Part shown: in pieces, positions 27,205 through 33,668 of the stretch | How the letters are laid out: each line of letters opens with the position of its first letter | Numbering within the stretch: the stretch's first letter is position 1 | Assembly: GCA_947625815.1 (NCBI GenBank) | Contig: CANQPU010000019.1 | Span: forward strand, 1 to 33,668 | Direction of reading: 5' to 3' | Source of the DNA: an uncultured Oscillospiraceae bacterium | Lineage (GTDB): Bacteria > Bacillota > Clostridia > Oscillospirales > Oscillospiraceae | DNA: 33,668 bases | Translations under genes and position numbers: made by a program | The notes under the pieces: generated by a model | What the model saw: the letters and a program-made list of their open reading frames with translations, nothing else | What the model was told of the DNA's origin: nothing | Database searches by the model: none

Positions 27205-27528
27205 ATGCCGCGGGTGAAGTTTCAGACGCTGACGGAGCAGATGTTCTACGCGCTGCTGTGCCTCCGGACGGAGCGGTGCGGGATGGACATCCTGGACCTG
27301 GTCCCGGCCATGACGGGGGACCAGGTGAGCATCGGTTCCGGGACGCTCTACACGCTCTTAGAGCAGTTTTTAGACGCCGGGATGATTCGGAAGACGAAGG
27401 TGGAGGGCCGCCGGCGCAGCTACATCCTGACGGACGCCGGACGGGAGACGCTGAAACGGGAGTACGACCGGATCCGCCGCCAGGCGGAGGATTACAGAAG
27501 GATTTTCGGAGAGGAGGAGTCCAAATGA
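27205..27528 (+). CDS. PadR-family transcriptional regulator
   Basis: Winged-helix repressor of 107 residues. The PadR pattern is visible: LTEQMFYALLCL, an HTH with MDILDLVPAMTGDQVSIGSGTLYTLLEQFLDAGMI-type spacing (key part GSGTLYTLLEQF at 45-56), a wing RRRSYILTDAGRETL (69-83) and a short C-terminal dimerisation helix. PadR proteins usually repress their own gene and a neighbouring membrane or efflux gene and release on binding a small molecule. AAAGGAG precedes the ATG. It overlaps the DUF2812 gene by four bases (ATGA). Three copies of one palindrome at its promoter strongly suggest autoregulation, although the palindrome is unlike the ATGT/ACAT sites known for some PadR proteins. Confidence 0.93.
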   Translation: MPRVKFQTLTEQMFYALLCLRTERCGMDILDLVPAMTGDQVSIGSGTLYTLLEQFLDAGMIRKTKVEGRRRSYILTDAGRETLKREYDRIRRQAEDYRRIFGEEESK

Positions 27529-28913
27529 GAGACACAATACGCAGGCTGGAGTTATATTCCTTCTACGACCACACCGGCCTGGAGCGGCACCTGGAGAGCA
27601 TGGCCGCCAAAGGCTGGATGGTGGAGAAGACGGAGCCCCTCTGGCGCTACCGCCGGTGCGAGCCCCGGCAGGTCCAGTTCACCGTCACCTTTTACCCCCG
27701 GGCCTCCATGTTCGATCCGGAGCCCACGGAGGGGGAGCTGGACTTTCAGGCCTTCTGCCGGGAGACGGGCTGGAAGCTGGCCTGCTCCAGCGCCCAGCTC
27801 CAGGTCTTCTACAACGAGGATCTGAACGCCGTGCCCATCGACACGGACCCCATGACCGAGGTGGAGACCCTCCACCGCACGGCCAAGCGGGCCTATTTCC
27901 CCAGCCTCTTCGTGCTGCTGGCGGTGTGCCTGCTGCAGTTTTATATGCTGATCTCCGACCTCATCACAAGGCCCCTCTACCGGCTGTCCAGCAGCCTGTG
28001 GACCTGCTCCACGGCGCTCTATATCCTCGTGACGGTGCTGGTGATGGCGGAGCTGGTGGGCTACTTCTCCTGGCGGAGACGCGCCCTGAAGGCGGCCCGG
28101 CGTGGGGAGTTCCTGGCCACGAAGGGCCACCGGAGGCTTCAGATCGTCGTCCTCGTTTTGGCCTGCGCGGCGGTCCTCTTCCTCCTGGTGAGCCTGGCGC
28201 TGGAGGCGAACAGCGTTATTCTCGCGTCCTTTGTCCTGATGGCCCTGTGCATGGCGGGCGTGGCGGCGCTGACCTGGGGGATCCGGGCGCTTTTCCGGCG
28301 TCTGAAGGCCCCCAGGAATTTAAACCGCGTCCTGACCTTCGGCATCCCCTTCCTCGTGGGCACCTTCGGCACATGCTTCCTGATTTTCCTCTTTGTCAGC
28401 GGCGTCTCCAACGGGCAGATCCCCCTTGGGAAGGACGCCGGCACCGAGACCTACCAGTTCGGCGGGATCTCCTGGAAGCTCTACCACGACGAGCTGCCCC
28501 TGGTCCTCAAGGATCTGACGGACGCGGACACGGAGGACTACATCCGCGAGCGTGACGGGGACGAGTCCGTTTTCCTCGGGGACTTTGAATACGAGCAGTA
28601 CCCCCGCTGGGACGCGCCGGACCGGTCGGAGCTCCCGCGGCTGGAGTATGAGATCGTCAGCGTGAAGCTGCCGTTTTTCTATGACTTCTGCGTGAACGCA
28701 AAGCTCCGGGAATACAAGGCCGGGGACTGGGAGTGGGTCCCCGCGGACCCCGCCCCCTGGGGGGCTGACAGGGCCTGGGTCCTGACGGACGCCCAGACGG
28801 GGGAGAGATGGGACCAATATCTCCTGTGCGGCGAGGACCGAATCGTGGACATCGCCCTCACCTGGACCCCGGACGAGGGGCAGAGAAGGACGGTGGGGGA
28901 GAAGCTTCTGTGA
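27525..28913 (+). CDS. DUF2812 membrane protein partner of PadR
   Basis: 462-residue protein of unknown function. Residues 1-115 match the DUF2812 pattern as remembered (YSFYDHTGLERHLESMAAKGWMVEK, then YRFxFx-like strands and ETGWKL). Five hydrophobic segments follow at about 125-146, 158-182, 205-226, 229-256 and 269-293, then a soluble C-terminal part of about 165 residues rich in Trp, Asp and Glu (DWEWVPADPAPWGADRAW). The true start is ATG 27525, overlapping padR by four bases; a longer open frame upstream lies in another phase of padR. Such PadR-DUF2812 pairs are common in gut Firmicutes and are thought to respond to envelope or antimicrobial stress, but no activity can be read here. Confidence 0.82.
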   Translation: MRDTIRRLELYSFYDHTGLERHLESMAAKGWMVEKTEPLWRYRRCEPRQVQFTVTFYPRASMFDPEPTEGELDFQAFCRETGWKLACSSAQLQVFYNEDLNAVPIDTDPMTEVETLHRTAKRAYFPSLFVLLAVCLLQFYMLISDLITRPLYRLSSSLWTCSTALYILVTVLVMAELVGYFSWRRRALKAARRGEFLATKGHRRLQIVVLVLACAAVLFLLVSLALEANSVILASFVLMALCMAGVAALTWGIRALFRRLKAPRNLNRVLTFGIPFLVGTFGTCFLIFLFVSGVSNGQIPLGKDAGTETYQFGGISWKLYHDELPLVLKDLTDADTEDYIRERDGDESVFLGDFEYEQYPRWDAPDRSELPRLEYEIVSVKLPFFYDFCVNAKLREYKAGDWEWVPADPAPWGADRAWVLTDAQTGERWDQYLLCGEDRIVDIALTWTPDEGQRRTVGEKLL

Positions 28914-28951: not shown

Positions 28952-28979
28952 TTGAATTCACCGAAAGATATGGTATAAT
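28952..28979 (+). promoter_or_regulatory. Sigma-A promoter of fba
   Basis: TTGAAT at 28952-28957, 16-base spacer, TATAAT at 28974-28979 preceded by TGG (extended -10). Confidence 0.85.
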
Positions 28980-29022: not shown

Positions 29023-29991
29023 ATGCCTTTAGTCACCACCACCGAGATGTTTAAGAAGGCCTACGACGGCGGCTACGCCGTGGGCGCGTTCAACGTCAAC
29101 AACATGGAGATCGTCCAGGGCATCACCGAAGCCGCCCGGGAACAGCACGCGCCGCTGATCCTCCAGGTCTCCAAGGGAGCCCGTGCCTACGCAAACCATA
29201 CTTATCTTGTGAAGCTCGTCGAGGCCGCCGTGATCGAGTGCCCCGATATCCCCATCGCGCTCCATCTGGACCACGGCCCGGATTTTGAGACCTGCAAATC
29301 CTGCATCGACGGCGGCTTTACCTCCGTGATGATCGACGCCAGCTCCAAGCCCTTCAAGGAGAATATCGAGATCACCCGCAAGGTGGTGGAGTACGCCCAC
29401 GACCACGGCGTGGTGGTGGAGGCCGAGCTCGGCTCTCTGGCCGGCGTGGAGGACGAGGTCAACGTCTCCGCCGAGGACTCCAGCTACACCCGGCCCGAGG
29501 AGGTGGAGGAGTTCGTCTCCAAGACCGGCTGCGACTCCCTGGCTATCGCCATCGGCACCAGCCACGGCGCTTACAAGTTCACCGCCGCCCAGTGCACCCG
29601 CAACGAGCAGGGCGTCCTTGTGCCGCCCCCGCTGCGGTTCGACATCCTGGAGGAGGTCTCCCACCGCCTGCCCGGGTTCCCCATCGTGCTCCACGGCTCC
29701 TCCAGTGTGCCCCAGGAGTTTGTGAAGATGATCAATGAAAACGGCGGCAAGATGCCCGACGCGGTGGGCATCCCCGAGGAGCAGCTCCGCAAGGCCGCGA
29801 CTCTGTCCGTCTGCAAGATCAACATCGACTCCGACCTGCGGCTGGCCATGACCGGCTCCATTCGCAAATATTTCGCGGAGCACCCGGATCACTTTGATCC
29901 GAGGCAGTATCTGACCCCGGCGCGCGCCAACATCAAGGCCATCGTGACGCATAAGCTCATCGATGTCCTCGGCTGTGCCGGCAAGGCTTAA
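29023..29991 (+). CDS. fba: Class II fructose-bisphosphate aldolase
   Basis: Zinc-dependent aldolase interconverting fructose 1,6-bisphosphate with dihydroxyacetone phosphate and glyceraldehyde 3-phosphate in glycolysis. The 322 residues show GAFNVNNMEIVQG, the catalytic and metal site HLDHGPDFETC (Asp83, His84), EAELGSLAGVEDE, the metal ligands His181 (GTSHGAYKF) and His224 (VLHGSSSVP), and KINIDSDLRLAMTGSIR near the end. These features fit class IIB. AGGAG lies about nine bases before the ATG. It has its own promoter, and codon use is strongly biased as in highly expressed genes. An attenuator-like element separates it from the next gene. Confidence 0.97.
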   Translation: MPLVTTTEMFKKAYDGGYAVGAFNVNNMEIVQGITEAAREQHAPLILQVSKGARAYANHTYLVKLVEAAVIECPDIPIALHLDHGPDFETCKSCIDGGFTSVMIDASSKPFKENIEITRKVVEYAHDHGVVVEAELGSLAGVEDEVNVSAEDSSYTRPEEVEEFVSKTGCDSLAIAIGTSHGAYKFTAAQCTRNEQGVLVPPPLRFDILEEVSHRLPGFPIVLHGSSSVPQEFVKMINENGGKMPDAVGIPEEQLRKAATLSVCKINIDSDLRLAMTGSIRKYFAEHPDHFDPRQYLTPARANIKAIVTHKLIDVLGCAGKA

Positions 29992-30073: not shown

Positions 30074-31939
30074 ATGGAAGAGAAAGAGACCGGGAAGCTC
30101 GAAACGGAGCTTCAGGATACGGAGGCCCCCGAAAAGACGGAGCCGGAGGATACCGAGAAGGAAGAGACGGAAGGAGCGGGACCCGAGACGCCGGAGGAAC
30201 CCACCGGGGAAGCGGGGGAGCCGGAGAGCTCGGACGAGCCTGCAAGTACAGGCGCGGCGGAGTTTGAGGACTTCCTCCCCGGGGAGGACGAACCGGAAGA
30301 GAGAGAGGCGCGGGCCGACCGCGGCAGAAGAAGCTCGCCGGTGATCTCAGACGCGGCCCTTCTGCTTCTGACCGCCACGGCGCTGGCCGCCGTGACAGCC
30401 AGCATCGCCGTGGCCATGAGGCTTCAGGATACCCTCTGGCGGGTGGTCATGACGCTGTCGCTGGCGGTGGCCTGCGTGCCCATGATTCCGGGGATCCTGG
30501 GCTTTATCAGGGACCGGGGAAGGGTGCCGGCGGAGCTTGTGATGCTCCTGTCCTCCGTTTTACTCTCGCTGTGCGGCGGCGTGGTGGAGGCGGTGATCGC
30601 CGTCATCATTTTTGACCTGCTGCGCGCCATCATCGATGCCTTTACCGGCCACGAGCTGGGGCTTGTGACCCGGCGGCTTGAGGAGGAGCATGACAGGATC
30701 GAGGACGAGGCGCGGAGGGCCCGGATCGCCAATCAGCTGCGGGAAATCAGGTCTGTCAGACTGCGGCCCATCGTGCTGGAGCGGAAGTTTGACTTTCTGG
30801 CCCTTCTGGTCATGCTGGGACTGGGCGCTTTTCTTTCGCTCATCCCGCCGCTGTTTGATGAGATGAACTTCCTCAAATGGCTGGGGAGGGCCGCCGCGGC
30901 TCTGGCGGTGTGCGCCTATTCCGGAGACGCCGGGGTACTGATGACCTACCTGAACGCCATGGATTCCTGCACGTCGGCGGGTATCTTTTTCGCGGAGACG
31001 GGGACCATGACGGCCGCGTCCGAGATCACCAGCGTGCTCTTCAGCAAGACCGGCACGCTGACGGAGGGCAGATTTCACGTGATCGGCACGGATCCGGTCA
31101 GGATCTCCGAGAAACAGCTCATGTTCCTGGCCGCCTACGCCGGCGCCTGGTCCGAACACCCCATCGACCGGGCCATACGGCAGTATGCCGGGTTCCTTCC
31201 CGACAGATCCCGGGTCCAGCGCCATCAGGAGCGCGAGGGGTACGGCGCCATGGCTCAGCTGGACGGACAGCAGATCATTGCAGTGGGCAACATCGATCTG
31301 ATGGAGGAGCTGGGCGTCCGGGGGGACATGTATATCCCCGGCGAGACCTGCGTTTTTGTGGCGGTGGGGAGGACCTGCGTCGGGCGGATTGATTTTGCCG
31401 ACGACCTTCGGAGCGACGCGGTCAGCACCGTCAACGAGCTGAGGCGGCAGAGGGTCGCCAATGTGGCGCTGATGACCGGCGATAACGCGCTGAACTCCAC
31501 AAACATCGGAAGATCCCTGGGCATTTCGGAGGTCTACTCCGACTGCCGGCCAAAGGACAAGCTCTCCAGGCTCCAGTATATTCTTGATACGCAGGAGCGC
31601 GACGACAGGCTGGCCTTTGTCAGCTCCCAGAGGGAGGATACGGAGCTTTTGGAAATGGCCAACATCAGCGTGGTGCTGGGCAGTAACCCGGACGTCACCG
31701 GGACGTTCCCCGACGTGCTGCTCCCCTCTGAAAAGCTCATTAAGCTCCCGCTGGCGATCAGCATTTCCAGGGCGGTGCGGCGCGTGGTCCTTCTGAACTT
31801 CCTCATCTCCACGGCCGTCAGAGTCCTTGCGGTCATCTTGGCCGCCACGGGCGTGCTGTCGCTCTGGAGCGCGGCGACTATTATGCTCCTGCTGGAGGCG
31901 GGGCTGTTCTTCAATACGAGAGTGCCGGACGAGAGGTAA
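30074..31939 (+). CDS. Degenerate P1B-type ATPase homologue (probable pseudo-enzyme)
   Basis: 621-residue membrane protein with the frame of a heavy-metal P-type ATPase but without its catalytic residues. Residues 1-88 are extremely acidic (Glu/Pro/Thr). Hydrophobic segments lie at about 94-115, 121-145, 152-190, 240-261 and 267-292, and a final pair at about 569-592 and 597-614. The phosphorylation motif reads SKTGTLTEG, with Ser324 where the invariant Asp belongs. The metal-site CPC aligns with Cys280-Ala-Tyr282. GDGxND is replaced by SSQRED (517-522). The actuator domain is reduced to about 50 charged residues (191-239). The N-domain SEHP (360-363), GYGAMAQLDGQQIIAVGN and hinge TGDN (468-471) are kept. 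The frame is intact. A regulatory or binding role is likelier than transport. Confidence 0.85.
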   Translation: MEEKETGKLETELQDTEAPEKTEPEDTEKEETEGAGPETPEEPTGEAGEPESSDEPASTGAAEFEDFLPGEDEPEEREARADRGRRSSPVISDAALLLLTATALAAVTASIAVAMRLQDTLWRVVMTLSLAVACVPMIPGILGFIRDRGRVPAELVMLLSSVLLSLCGGVVEAVIAVIIFDLLRAIIDAFTGHELGLVTRRLEEEHDRIEDEARRARIANQLREIRSVRLRPIVLERKFDFLALLVMLGLGAFLSLIPPLFDEMNFLKWLGRAAAALAVCAYSGDAGVLMTYLNAMDSCTSAGIFFAETGTMTAASEITSVLFSKTGTLTEGRFHVIGTDPVRISEKQLMFLAAYAGAWSEHPIDRAIRQYAGFLPDRSRVQRHQEREGYGAMAQLDGQQIIAVGNIDLMEELGVRGDMYIPGETCVFVAVGRTCVGRIDFADDLRSDAVSTVNELRRQRVANVALMTGDNALNSTNIGRSLGISEVYSDCRPKDKLSRLQYILDTQERDDRLAFVSSQREDTELLEMANISVVLGSNPDVTGTFPDVLLPSEKLIKLPLAISISRAVRRVVLLNFLISTAVRVLAVILAATGVLSLWSAATIMLLLEAGLFFNTRVPDER

Positions 31940-31958: not shown

Positions 31959-31991
31959 AGGCCCCCGCCGCAGTGGATGCGGCGGGGGCCT
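31959..31991. terminator. Bidirectional terminator between convergent genes
   Basis: A 14-bp stem (31959-31972 pairing with 31978-31991, core GGCCCCCGCCGCA) with loop GTGGA. It lies 20 bases after the ATPase-like stop and 12 bases beyond the end of the minus-strand radical SAM gene. On the minus strand it is followed by TCATTTTG, on the plus strand by TCTGCGCTTTATT. Confidence 0.82.
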
Positions 31992-32003: not shown

Positions 32004-32606
32004 TCAGCCCTCATAGGCGCGGACGCGGAGCTTTGCGCCAAGGCTCTCAGCAATCCGGCGGCTCTTTTCCTGCTCCTCGGGGCTTGTGACCACGTCCACC
32101 ACGGTCATGACCACGTGGGGGACATAGGGCACGCAGGACCTGGCAAAGGAGAGCATGGCATCGTAAGAGCCTATGCCGAATCTGGGGCGGCAGAGCTTAT
32201 AATAATCCTGGGCGTTCGTCGCGTTGAGGCTGATGGATACGGTGTCGATGAGTCCGGCAAGCTCCGGCGCGGTGGAGCGGCCGTTGATGAGGTCGGAAAG
32301 GCCGTTCGTGTTGATGCGGATGGGGATATCATACCGACTCTTTACATATCCGGCCACCTGGAGGAGATCGTCCAGCCGTTCCGTGGGCTCGCCGTAACCG
32401 CAGAAGACCAGCTCGTCGAATTTGGGAAGATCCCATCGGTCCAGGCTCATACAGACCTCCCGGACCTCAGGCTCCCGCTCGAGCCATAACGAATCCGAAC
32501 CGTAGACGCCGTCGCCGTTTTTCCTGAGGCAGAACGTGCAGGCGCAGGGACAGCGGTTGGTCATGTTCACATAGATCCCGTTTTTGACTTTATACGTGAT
32601 GGTCAT
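32004..32606 (-). CDS. TatD-associated-type radical SAM protein
   Basis: Radical S-adenosylmethionine protein of 200 residues with the cluster motif CPCACTFC (Cys19, Cys23, Cys26). The opening YVNMTNRCPCACTFCLR and the stretch FCGYGEPTERLDDLL fit the small TatD-linked radical SAM family; NGLSDLINGRSTAPEL and VSISLNATNAQDYYKLCRPRFG follow. These proteins are often next to, or joined with, a TatD-like nuclease, but no tatD is in the window. The substrate is unknown. AAAGGAG lies seven bases before the minus-strand ATG at 32606. It follows the nitroreductase by 23 bases and is probably co-transcribed with it. Confidence 0.88.
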   Translation of the reverse strand: MTITYKVKNGIYVNMTNRCPCACTFCLRKNGDGVYGSDSLWLEREPEVREVCMSLDRWDLPKFDELVFCGYGEPTERLDDLLQVAGYVKSRYDIPIRINTNGLSDLINGRSTAPELAGLIDTVSISLNATNAQDYYKLCRPRFGIGSYDAMLSFARSCVPYVPHVVMTVVDVVTSPEEQEKSRRIAESLGAKLRVRAYEG

Positions 32607-32629
32607 TTCAAAGCTCCTTTGAGGTTTTT

Positions 32630-33379
32630 CTACTCCGGTATGAATTCCCCGGTCTCGCCGAAATTCCAGAATCCCCGGACGCCGAGGGCCTCAGCGGCCA
32701 CCTGGAACTGGTATTTGGCGATGCCAAGGTCGTTGTACATCATTTCATTCTTCTTCTCTTTCCACAGTCTGGCTGTCACGAGACCGTCCCGGAAGACGAT
32801 ATTCACCGGCTGCTGGTTCACCGCCGAGGGTCCGAGCCTCACGGCCTCCACGCCCGCACGTACCCAGGCGGGCAGGGAGGCAAAGGGGTAGTCGGACTCC
32901 ACGAAATCCTGGAGCTTGCGGTCCCTGGCGCGGATGCGGGAGCGTATAGCGCGCTGAAGGACGGGAGTTTTCTCCGTGGCGTATCCGACAGGGACAACGC
33001 CCCAGAGCTTCTCGTCCACGCCAAGATCGGGGCTGACGGACTTTTTGTCAAAGGTGCCGGCGACCCAGCAGGTGCCAAGGCCGAGGGAAACGGCGCGCAG
33101 GATCAGCTTTTCACTGAAATATCCCACCATTTCGCCGCCTGTCCGGTCGGATGGGCCTACCAGCAAAACACAGGTATAGACCTCCCCGGAGAACATCCCG
33201 GGGGAGAGCTTCACGGCGGGCGTCCCGGCGCCGGATCCGTCAACGAGCTGGAAATGAAGGCCGAAGGCGTTACATTCATCGACGCAGCTTTGAAGCTCCG
33301 CCACGATCTCGGGCGGGATGGGGAGCTTCCGGAACGAGCGGACCGATATGCGCTTTTGAAGCGCTTCATACTCTGTCAT
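32630..33379 (-). CDS. Nitroreductase-family flavoprotein (TM1586-type)
   Basis: Predicted FMN-binding oxidoreductase of 249 residues. The start MTEYEALQKRISVRSF is the family N-terminus, with Arg and Ser for flavin phosphate. Other marks are SEKLILRAVSLGLGTCWVAGTF, VPVGYATEK, and a second flavin-type stretch VRLGPSAVNQQPVNIVF, typical of the putative TM-nitroreductase subgroup. ATG 33379 is chosen on family grounds. AAAGGA ends 12 bases upstream, and an in-frame ATG at 33391 abuts that site, so the exact start is uncertain. The frame remains open to 33568 but the extra residues are unrelated to the family and run into the RNA candidate. Substrate unknown. Confidence 0.87.
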   Translation of the reverse strand: MTEYEALQKRISVRSFRKLPIPPEIVAELQSCVDECNAFGLHFQLVDGSGAGTPAVKLSPGMFSGEVYTCVLLVGPSDRTGGEMVGYFSEKLILRAVSLGLGTCWVAGTFDKKSVSPDLGVDEKLWGVVPVGYATEKTPVLQRAIRSRIRARDRKLQDFVESDYPFASLPAWVRAGVEAVRLGPSAVNQQPVNIVFRDGLVTARLWKEKKNEMMYNDLGIAKYQFQVAAEALGVRGFWNFGETGEFIPE

Positions 33380-33462
33380 TTTTATGACCATTCCTTTCCG
33401 CTGCGCGTCAAGGCACCAAAGGGGATGAAACACAGGTGTCTCTAACGCAGCAAGTCGTAATT

Positions 33463-33471
33463 TGTTAGAAT
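33463..33471 (+). promoter_or_regulatory. Extended -10 promoter element for the right-end RNA
   Basis: TGTTAGAAT: TAGAAT at 33466-33471 preceded by TGT. No good -35 hexamer is found at the usual distance. The predicted start (about 33478) falls within two bases of the beginning of the closing stem of the RNA candidate. The element also forms an inverted repeat with TCTAAC at 33441-33446. Confidence 0.5.
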
Positions 33472-33475
33472 GTAC

Positions 33476-33668
33476 TTGAGGAAGCAGGCACACTACAGAG
33501 CACGTGGAGGTGAGTAGGCTCAGCCTGGCGCTGGACTGAATTTTTATGTGTGCCGGACGTTCTTTCAAGCACCAATGAGTAGGGCTTTGCGCCCTGTAAC
33601 CTTATCTTTGGAGAGACGGACTACTTCAATCTTTCAGTGAACGTCCAGTCAATGCCTGTTTTCCTCAA
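33476..33668 (+). ncRNA. Structured non-coding RNA candidate, family not resolved
   Basis: About 193 bases without a coding frame, fitting a Y-shaped fold. The closing stem pairs TTGAGGAAGCAGGCA (33476-33490) with TGCCTGTTTTCCTCAA (33653-33668), one wobble and one bulge. Arm 2: GGCACAC (33487-33493) with GTGTGCC (33548-33554). Arm 3 begins at the next base: GGACGTTC (33555-33562) with GAACGTCC (33639-33646), enclosing a rod of CCAA/TTGG, ATGAG/CTTAT and AGGGC/GCCCT (33572-33611). The 6S RNA has a similar length but is a single rod; the raiA motif is another possibility. Neither could be confirmed by eye. The promoter element upstream favours the plus strand. Confidence 0.6.

Follow-up and report, generated by a model that had tools for sequence, protein, structure and literature searches.

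What does a metal pump become once it has lost the parts with which it pumps? This question is raised by a gene in the window, as we call the whole stretch of 33,668 nucleotides that was analysed. An earlier note on this DNA had described a P-type ATPase fold from which the phospho-acceptor, metal site, GDGxND motif and actuator domain are missing. That note rested on one sequence, from which the rule of an Asn at the phospho-acceptor position, the tie to an aldolase gene and the existence of several degraded lines were not visible. The features of the gene are the following:

30074..31939, + strand: pseudo-P1B ATPase gene, 621 amino acids and a stop codon (reading frame, NCBIfam match, genus-wide retention and structure model)
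30074..30340, + strand: acidic tail, residues 1-89, modelled with low confidence
30632..30796, + strand: short helical stretch, about residues 187-241, replacing the actuator domain (alignment and AlphaFold2 model)
30911..30919, + strand: Cys280-Ala281-Tyr282 where the CPC metal motif is expected (alignment)
31043..31063, + strand: SKTGTLT, with Ser324 replacing the phospho-acceptor Asp (alignment)
31151..31162, + strand: Ser360-Glu361-His362-Pro363 of the nucleotide-binding domain, with His362 invariant in 28/28 members
31475..31486, + strand: Thr468-Gly469-Asp470-Asn471, with TGD invariant in 28/28 members
31622..31639, + strand: SSQRED (517-522) replacing GDGxND (alignment)

The frame is open throughout (30074-31936 on the + strand, 621 amino acids, with the stop codon at 31937-31939), as the earlier note had stated, and its start is preceded by a ribosome-binding-type stretch that is similar in most relatives. 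The NCBIfam P1B model TIGR01525 matches residues 255-604 (E 3.2e-56) with a score of 191 bits against a cut-off of 346, and within the set TIGR01525/TIGR01512/TIGR01511 the Cd/Zn subfamily model outscores the Cu one. A HAD domain is the only Pfam match of the window's protein. Among 28 aligned members, which are the window's protein and 27 others (L036 was left out for an in-frame stop near a contig end), the HAD model matches 27 and the E1-E2_ATPase model 3, in a table that does not indicate which members or which stretch gave the latter matches. The proposed P-type fold was also recovered in an AlphaFold2 model (mean pLDDT 83.7), which superposes on P1B pumps and has helices in the expected place of the actuator domain. 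The modelled P and N domains superpose on the CopA P-N structure with AMPPCP (3a1c_B) with an rmsd of 2.2 over 261 residues. By homology of both sequence and fold, the window's protein belongs to the P1B subfamily by descent. Its acidic tail holds 33 acidic residues among the first 92.

We examined the lost catalytic parts across the genus. The alignment placed Ser324 within SKTGTLT, Cys280-Ala281-Tyr282, SSQRED, SEHP, the glycine-rich GxG strand and TGDN where the earlier note had read them. P-type pumps use the Asp residues at positions 324 and 518 for phosphoryl transfer and Mg binding. Position 324 is Asn in 23/28 members, Ser in 4/28 and Asp in a single one, L032, where it stands in DKRGT; Asn is the genus rule and Ser a local variant. 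Position 518, the first Asp of GDGxND, is Asp in none of the 28 members and Glu in one. A complete GDGxND is found in 0/28, and its final acid is retained as Asp522 in the window and as Asp or Glu in 26/28. The CPC motif in TM4 is absent from the window's protein and kept in 1/28 members, and the M6 Asp column is Met604 in the window, with Met in 20/28 members and Asp in 5/28. About 47 residues occupy the actuator place, compared with 128 in an intact relative, which agrees with the earlier estimate of about 50, and the window's protein has no Pfam E1-E2_ATPase match. This stretch measures 31-51 residues in all 29 members measured (truncated L036 included), and TGE does not occur there, with one SGE in L015. 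The short actuator region and the loss of GDGxND hold across the genus; Ser324 does not. A search for close relatives that carry both the Asp and GDGxND found none. Because the phospho-acceptor Asp, GDGxND and the actuator domain are gone, the P-type cycle as known should not be possible, and the claimed loss of pumping is well supported by sequence losses that the genus conserves. The genome that contains the window also encodes a separate P1B homologue with DKTGT, TGES, CPC and GDGIND (L002, G000:C1), which by eye is preceded by an ArsR-like frame.

The claim that nucleotide-binding parts are selectively retained was likewise borne out. His362, Gly389, Gly391, Gly405, Asn406, Thr468-Gly469-Asp470 and Lys496 are invariant in 28/28 members, and the invariant columns of the alignment number 27. 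We take the first five of these residues to form the P1B adenine pocket, and TGD and Lys496 to be HAD motif II and III residues. In the window's protein, a P1B-type nucleotide-binding domain (SEHP and GxG) is recognized by both its residues and its fold match.

In 149 genomes, a protein search identified 28 orthologous loci besides the window's, all in the same genus, with weaker P1B matches elsewhere, and a profile search matched 29/34 genomes of the genus at E < 1e-100, including 21/21 good genomes. Internal stops are absent from 28/29 genus loci; the exception is L036/L067 of G003, where a TGA interrupts the frame close to the end of a contig. Core dN/dS ranged from 0.035 to 0.25 in 12 pairs, of which several, including those with the two lowest ratios, have dS near or above 1. 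The acidic tail is looser, with dN/dS of 0.21-0.60 across the 10 pairs that allowed an estimate. In view of this purifying selection and the genus-wide retention, we reject decay or sequencing error as the origin of the losses. On the strength of its conserved columns, core dN/dS and genus-wide retention, the pseudo-pump is a maintained protein and not a relic.

The gene has a constant neighbour, and the features of the locus around it are as follows:

28952..28979, + strand: sigma-70-like promoter match before the aldolase gene (consensus match only, with 2 matches where 0.8 would be expected)
29023..29991, + strand: class II fructose-bisphosphate aldolase, directly upstream of the pseudo-pump (PF01116, E 1.4e-100)
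31959..31991, no strand assigned: strong 14-pair hairpin 3' of the pseudo-pump (consensus match only; reported as a - strand terminator, which may serve both strands)

In 27/29 loci, the aldolase gene precedes the pseudo-pump in the same orientation, at a distance of no more than about 110 nt. The remaining two are L103, which starts with the aldolase's last 27 residues, and L107, which is cut off by a contig end; the aldolase is therefore directly upstream in every testable locus of the genus. The five genomes without the pseudo-pump are also without the matching aldolase, two having no match and three only paralogues of 39-46%. Consensus matching reported no terminator-like site between the two genes and four weak + strand sites within the pseudo-pump frame. 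The leader between the genes can form a hairpin, with 6 of 200 shuffles folding equally well, so full read-through is not certain. From this layout, the aldolase and the pseudo-pump likely form a two-gene operon. Upstream of the aldolase, the window encodes a PadR-type regulator and then a DUF2812 protein (27205-28913), a pair that lies 3' of the pseudo-pump instead in several other genus members. On the - strand, a radical SAM protein and a TM1586-type nitroreductase (32007-33568) are convergent with the pseudo-pump gene.

Linkage to aldolase was also found outside the genus. The region 3' of the aldolase was read at 138 loci, of which 93 belong to the family and 45 do not, a sample in which L241 was picked because a pump was already known there and 11 of the pump-free stretches are shorter than 2 kb. 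A same-strand P1B homologue was present at 15/138 loci, all within the family, and a P-type piece on the opposite strand at one further locus; 122 loci had none. Ten of the 15, from ten genera, have neither an intact DKTGT nor an intact GDGxND and constitute a second degraded line (L186, L187, L198, L201, L203, L207, L210, L226, L229 and L233). Their frames start no more than 44 nt from the aldolase end or overlap the aldolase. Intact P1B pumps are found 3' of the aldolase at the other five loci (L175, L200, L223, L227 and L241) at distances of 276-3038 nt; an ArsR-type regulator precedes the pump in 2/5 according to Pfam and in two more by eye. Pumps with a metal regulator of their own thus seem to have become part of the aldolase operon as they degraded, with the regulator dropped, an order of events that we infer.

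The second line differs from the window's genus in what it kept. The phospho-acceptor Asp remains in 6/10 members, His362 in 2/10, Asn406 in 1/10, Lys496 in 9/10, CPC in 2/10, the M6 Asp in 9/10 and GDGxND in 0/10. An actuator-like domain is present in four members (L201, L210, L229 and L233), of which L233 alone has a TGE-like match (TGEN). The counts for the M6 Asp and CPC suggest that the second line may have retained metal contacts that the window's genus lost.

In a tree of 56 sequences built from the P and N domain core, the genus clusters with degraded homologues from two other genera, g141 and g124 (L068-L070, L073 and L079; support 99/97). The ten second-line members cluster with two more MAG sequences (98/86), and that cluster joins the intact aldolase-linked pump L227 (100/100). 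A single origin of both aldolase-linked degraded lines was rejected by the AU test, since forcing them together costs 37.8 log units (p 0.00075), a result to be read with caution because the groups were picked after the tree was seen and long branches are present. We therefore favour, with that caution, two apparently independent origins. These closest relatives outside the genus are not next to the aldolase in the stretches fetched, and three of these five (L068, L069 and L070) retain an Asp. A YebC-like gene, identified by eye, adjoins both g141 copies that were fetched with longer flanks. Homologues with the Asp-to-Asn change also occur outside the genus, for example in Agathobaculum butyriciproducens DSM 100391 (L117) and a Methanobacteriaceae MAG (L127). 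The former (L117:8468-11149) is a P1B homologue of 894 residues that has NKTGT, carries a very long and acidic tail at its N terminus and includes an actuator domain recognized by Pfam; the latter (L127:9416-11251) has NKTGT and SPH.

With moderate confidence, we favour the reading that the window's protein is a repurposed P1B pseudo-pump that would bind ATP without hydrolysing it; the binding, the signal and the partner are what we infer. The residues with which such a pump is phosphorylated and dephosphorylated are missing from the protein, as is the TM4 metal site, and the membrane helices, the nucleotide-binding domain, TGD and the P-domain Lys remain. ATP or ADP could be bound without hydrolysis, the bound state could shift the N and P domains relative to the membrane helices, and a partner could receive the signal from the acidic tail or be tethered by it. 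Gene order alone makes the aldolase the first candidate for a partner.

Four other explanations were weighed against this reading. The protein might be a membrane anchor that senses no nucleotide and is selected only because it is co-expressed with the aldolase and tethers it. The recurrence of aldolase linkage in two separate degraded lines fits such an anchor, as does the absence of the ATP-pocket His from 8/10 second-line members; however, tethering alone would not need an ATP pocket that is invariant in 28/28 members of the genus, and we consider this explanation unlikely. Class II aldolase uses zinc, and the protein could instead be its zinc-handling partner, for example in zinc delivery or sensing, derived from a zinc exporter. 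The higher score of the Cd/Zn model, the intact pumps 3' of the aldolase with their ArsR-type regulators, and the M6 Asp (9/10) and CPC (2/10) kept in the second line all point toward zinc. Within the genus, however, CPC (1/28) and the M6 Asp (5/28) are mostly gone, the latter also from the window's protein, which makes a role with zinc quite improbable. Another catalytic or transport role, such as a passive channel, a protein that handles helices or lipids, or a HAD-type enzyme that relies on an unusual nucleophile, would make use of the retained membrane helices, TGD and Lys496, but we hold it to be similarly improbable given that Asp324 is missing in 27/28 members and Asp518 in all 28 (one having Glu there). 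Finally, a decaying, functionless pump copy that sits in the aldolase operon by chance would account for the loss of several catalytic motifs, for the different parts missing from different lineages and for the one in-frame TGA, but is very hard to reconcile with the low core dN/dS, 28/29 stop-free loci, 27 invariant columns and presence in 21/21 good genomes.

The preferred reading of a pseudo-pump that binds ATP without hydrolysis also has findings counting against it. The nucleotide pocket is mostly lost in the second line (His362 2/10, Asn406 1/10), and because that line instead keeps the M6 Asp and, in 6/10, the phospho-acceptor Asp, nucleotide binding is not the common reason for retention. 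Furthermore, in the stretches fetched the g141 and g124 relatives do not adjoin the aldolase, three of those five keep an Asp, L032 keeps its Asp, five members keep the M6 Asp, the leader hairpin is possible, and the window's protein does not carry the tail motif described below.

The tail pattern [DE][DEQ]I[LI]x[ED], a relaxed form of a DDIL-type motif, occurs in 18/28 genus members, and is absent from the tail of the window's protein and from seven distant-subgroup members of the alignment (L030-L035 and L037). A stricter DNA pattern for [LF][DE]DILxE[FY] matched in 116/400 family genomes and 47/106 genera, with one match of the reversed pattern noticed in the same table. We read 90 motif loci, ten of which are the same gene fetched twice. 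Lipoprotein signal peptidase II accounts for 27, with the motif near the C-terminal tip, and 32 are P-type-like by our own profile (E < 1e-3); in 30 of these 32 the motif stands close to the N terminus and in 2 it lies deeper. The 31 unclassified loci include some truncated or weaker group members and others that look like chance matches. Signal peptidase II of many family genera has a long C-terminal tail ending in [FY]xL[ED]DILxE[FY] (L326-L415, L298 and L302), and one protein that by eye is signal peptidase I-like has much the same ending.

Hyper-degenerate P-type-like membrane proteins with the tail motif [FY]xL[ED]DILxE[FY] form a third line (L356-L415, e.g., L373:2182-4506 and L396:1448-3526). 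Pfam gave no match for the two members tested, L373 and L396, and NCBIfam gave weak P1B matches in three of four. A profile of 26 members nevertheless matched the window's family with a probability of 98.8 (E 5.6e-17, 415 columns). Of 33 third-line loci examined, 32 have an RlmB-like gene on the upstream side and 24 have an EF-G-like gene on the downstream side, each neighbour having been identified from one example. In the degraded g124 homologue L079, the motif is found at the C terminus.

The motif as a general tag in the window's genus was not upheld, as the strict pattern matched only the pseudo-pump there (five matches across 34 genomes, none in the window's genome). A looser pattern gave 25 matches; the pseudo-pump accounts for six of them and a short tail fragment for one, and the remaining 18 seem unrelated when inspected by eye. 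None of the 30 genus signal peptidase II tails read carries the motif (matches were found in 31 genomes, one yielding no locus). The fragment, L313 of G013, is 39 residues long and lies at the end of a contig, followed by a pseudouridine-synthase-like frame. Judged by place only, it may be a signal peptidase II tail, and it may be foreign because G013 has an untagged copy (L428) and a reported contamination of 7%.

A broader proposal, which we put forward only tentatively, is that one family repeatedly made metal pumps non-pumping, giving rise to at least three lines in recurrent genomic settings (behind aldolase for two of them and between RlmB-like and EF-G-like genes for the third), and that, as some share the tail motif with signal peptidase II, pseudo-pumps and signal peptidase might have been recruited to one membrane hub.

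The pseudo-pump can be set beside known systems. With the P1B pumps ZntA/CadA and CopA (TIGR01525, TIGR01512 and TIGR01511) it shares the order of membrane helices, the P and N fold, SEHP, GxG, TGD and the P-domain Lys; in contrast to them, it has no phospho-acceptor Asp, GDGxND, CPC, M6 Asp or actuator domain, and has an added acidic tail. Pseudokinases, as pseudoenzymes, bind ATP without catalysis, and the same pattern of lost catalytic residues, a kept nucleotide pocket and continued selection is seen here. KdpB (P1A), which energises another subunit of KdpFABC, keeps DKTGTLT (PMC3573892) and also TGES, whereas the window's protein lost both. Among the matches listed from the open-licence literature, we found no pseudoenzyme family among P-type ATPases, no inactive P-type ATPases, no such aldolase linkage and no such signal peptidase tails. 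New here are the aldolase linkage, the second degraded line and the third, hyper-degenerate line with the signal peptidase II-type motif.

Few membrane machines have been studied as thoroughly as P-type ATPases, and the set described here is conserved and testable. If the proposal is true, the P-type ATPase fold would be the basis of a pseudoenzyme system. The members of the set have lost parts to different degrees, ranging from nearly intact to hyper-degenerate, and would thereby reveal what parts of the fold are of use for something other than pumping. In gut bacteria, such pseudo-pumps may connect sugar metabolism and protein maturation to the membrane.
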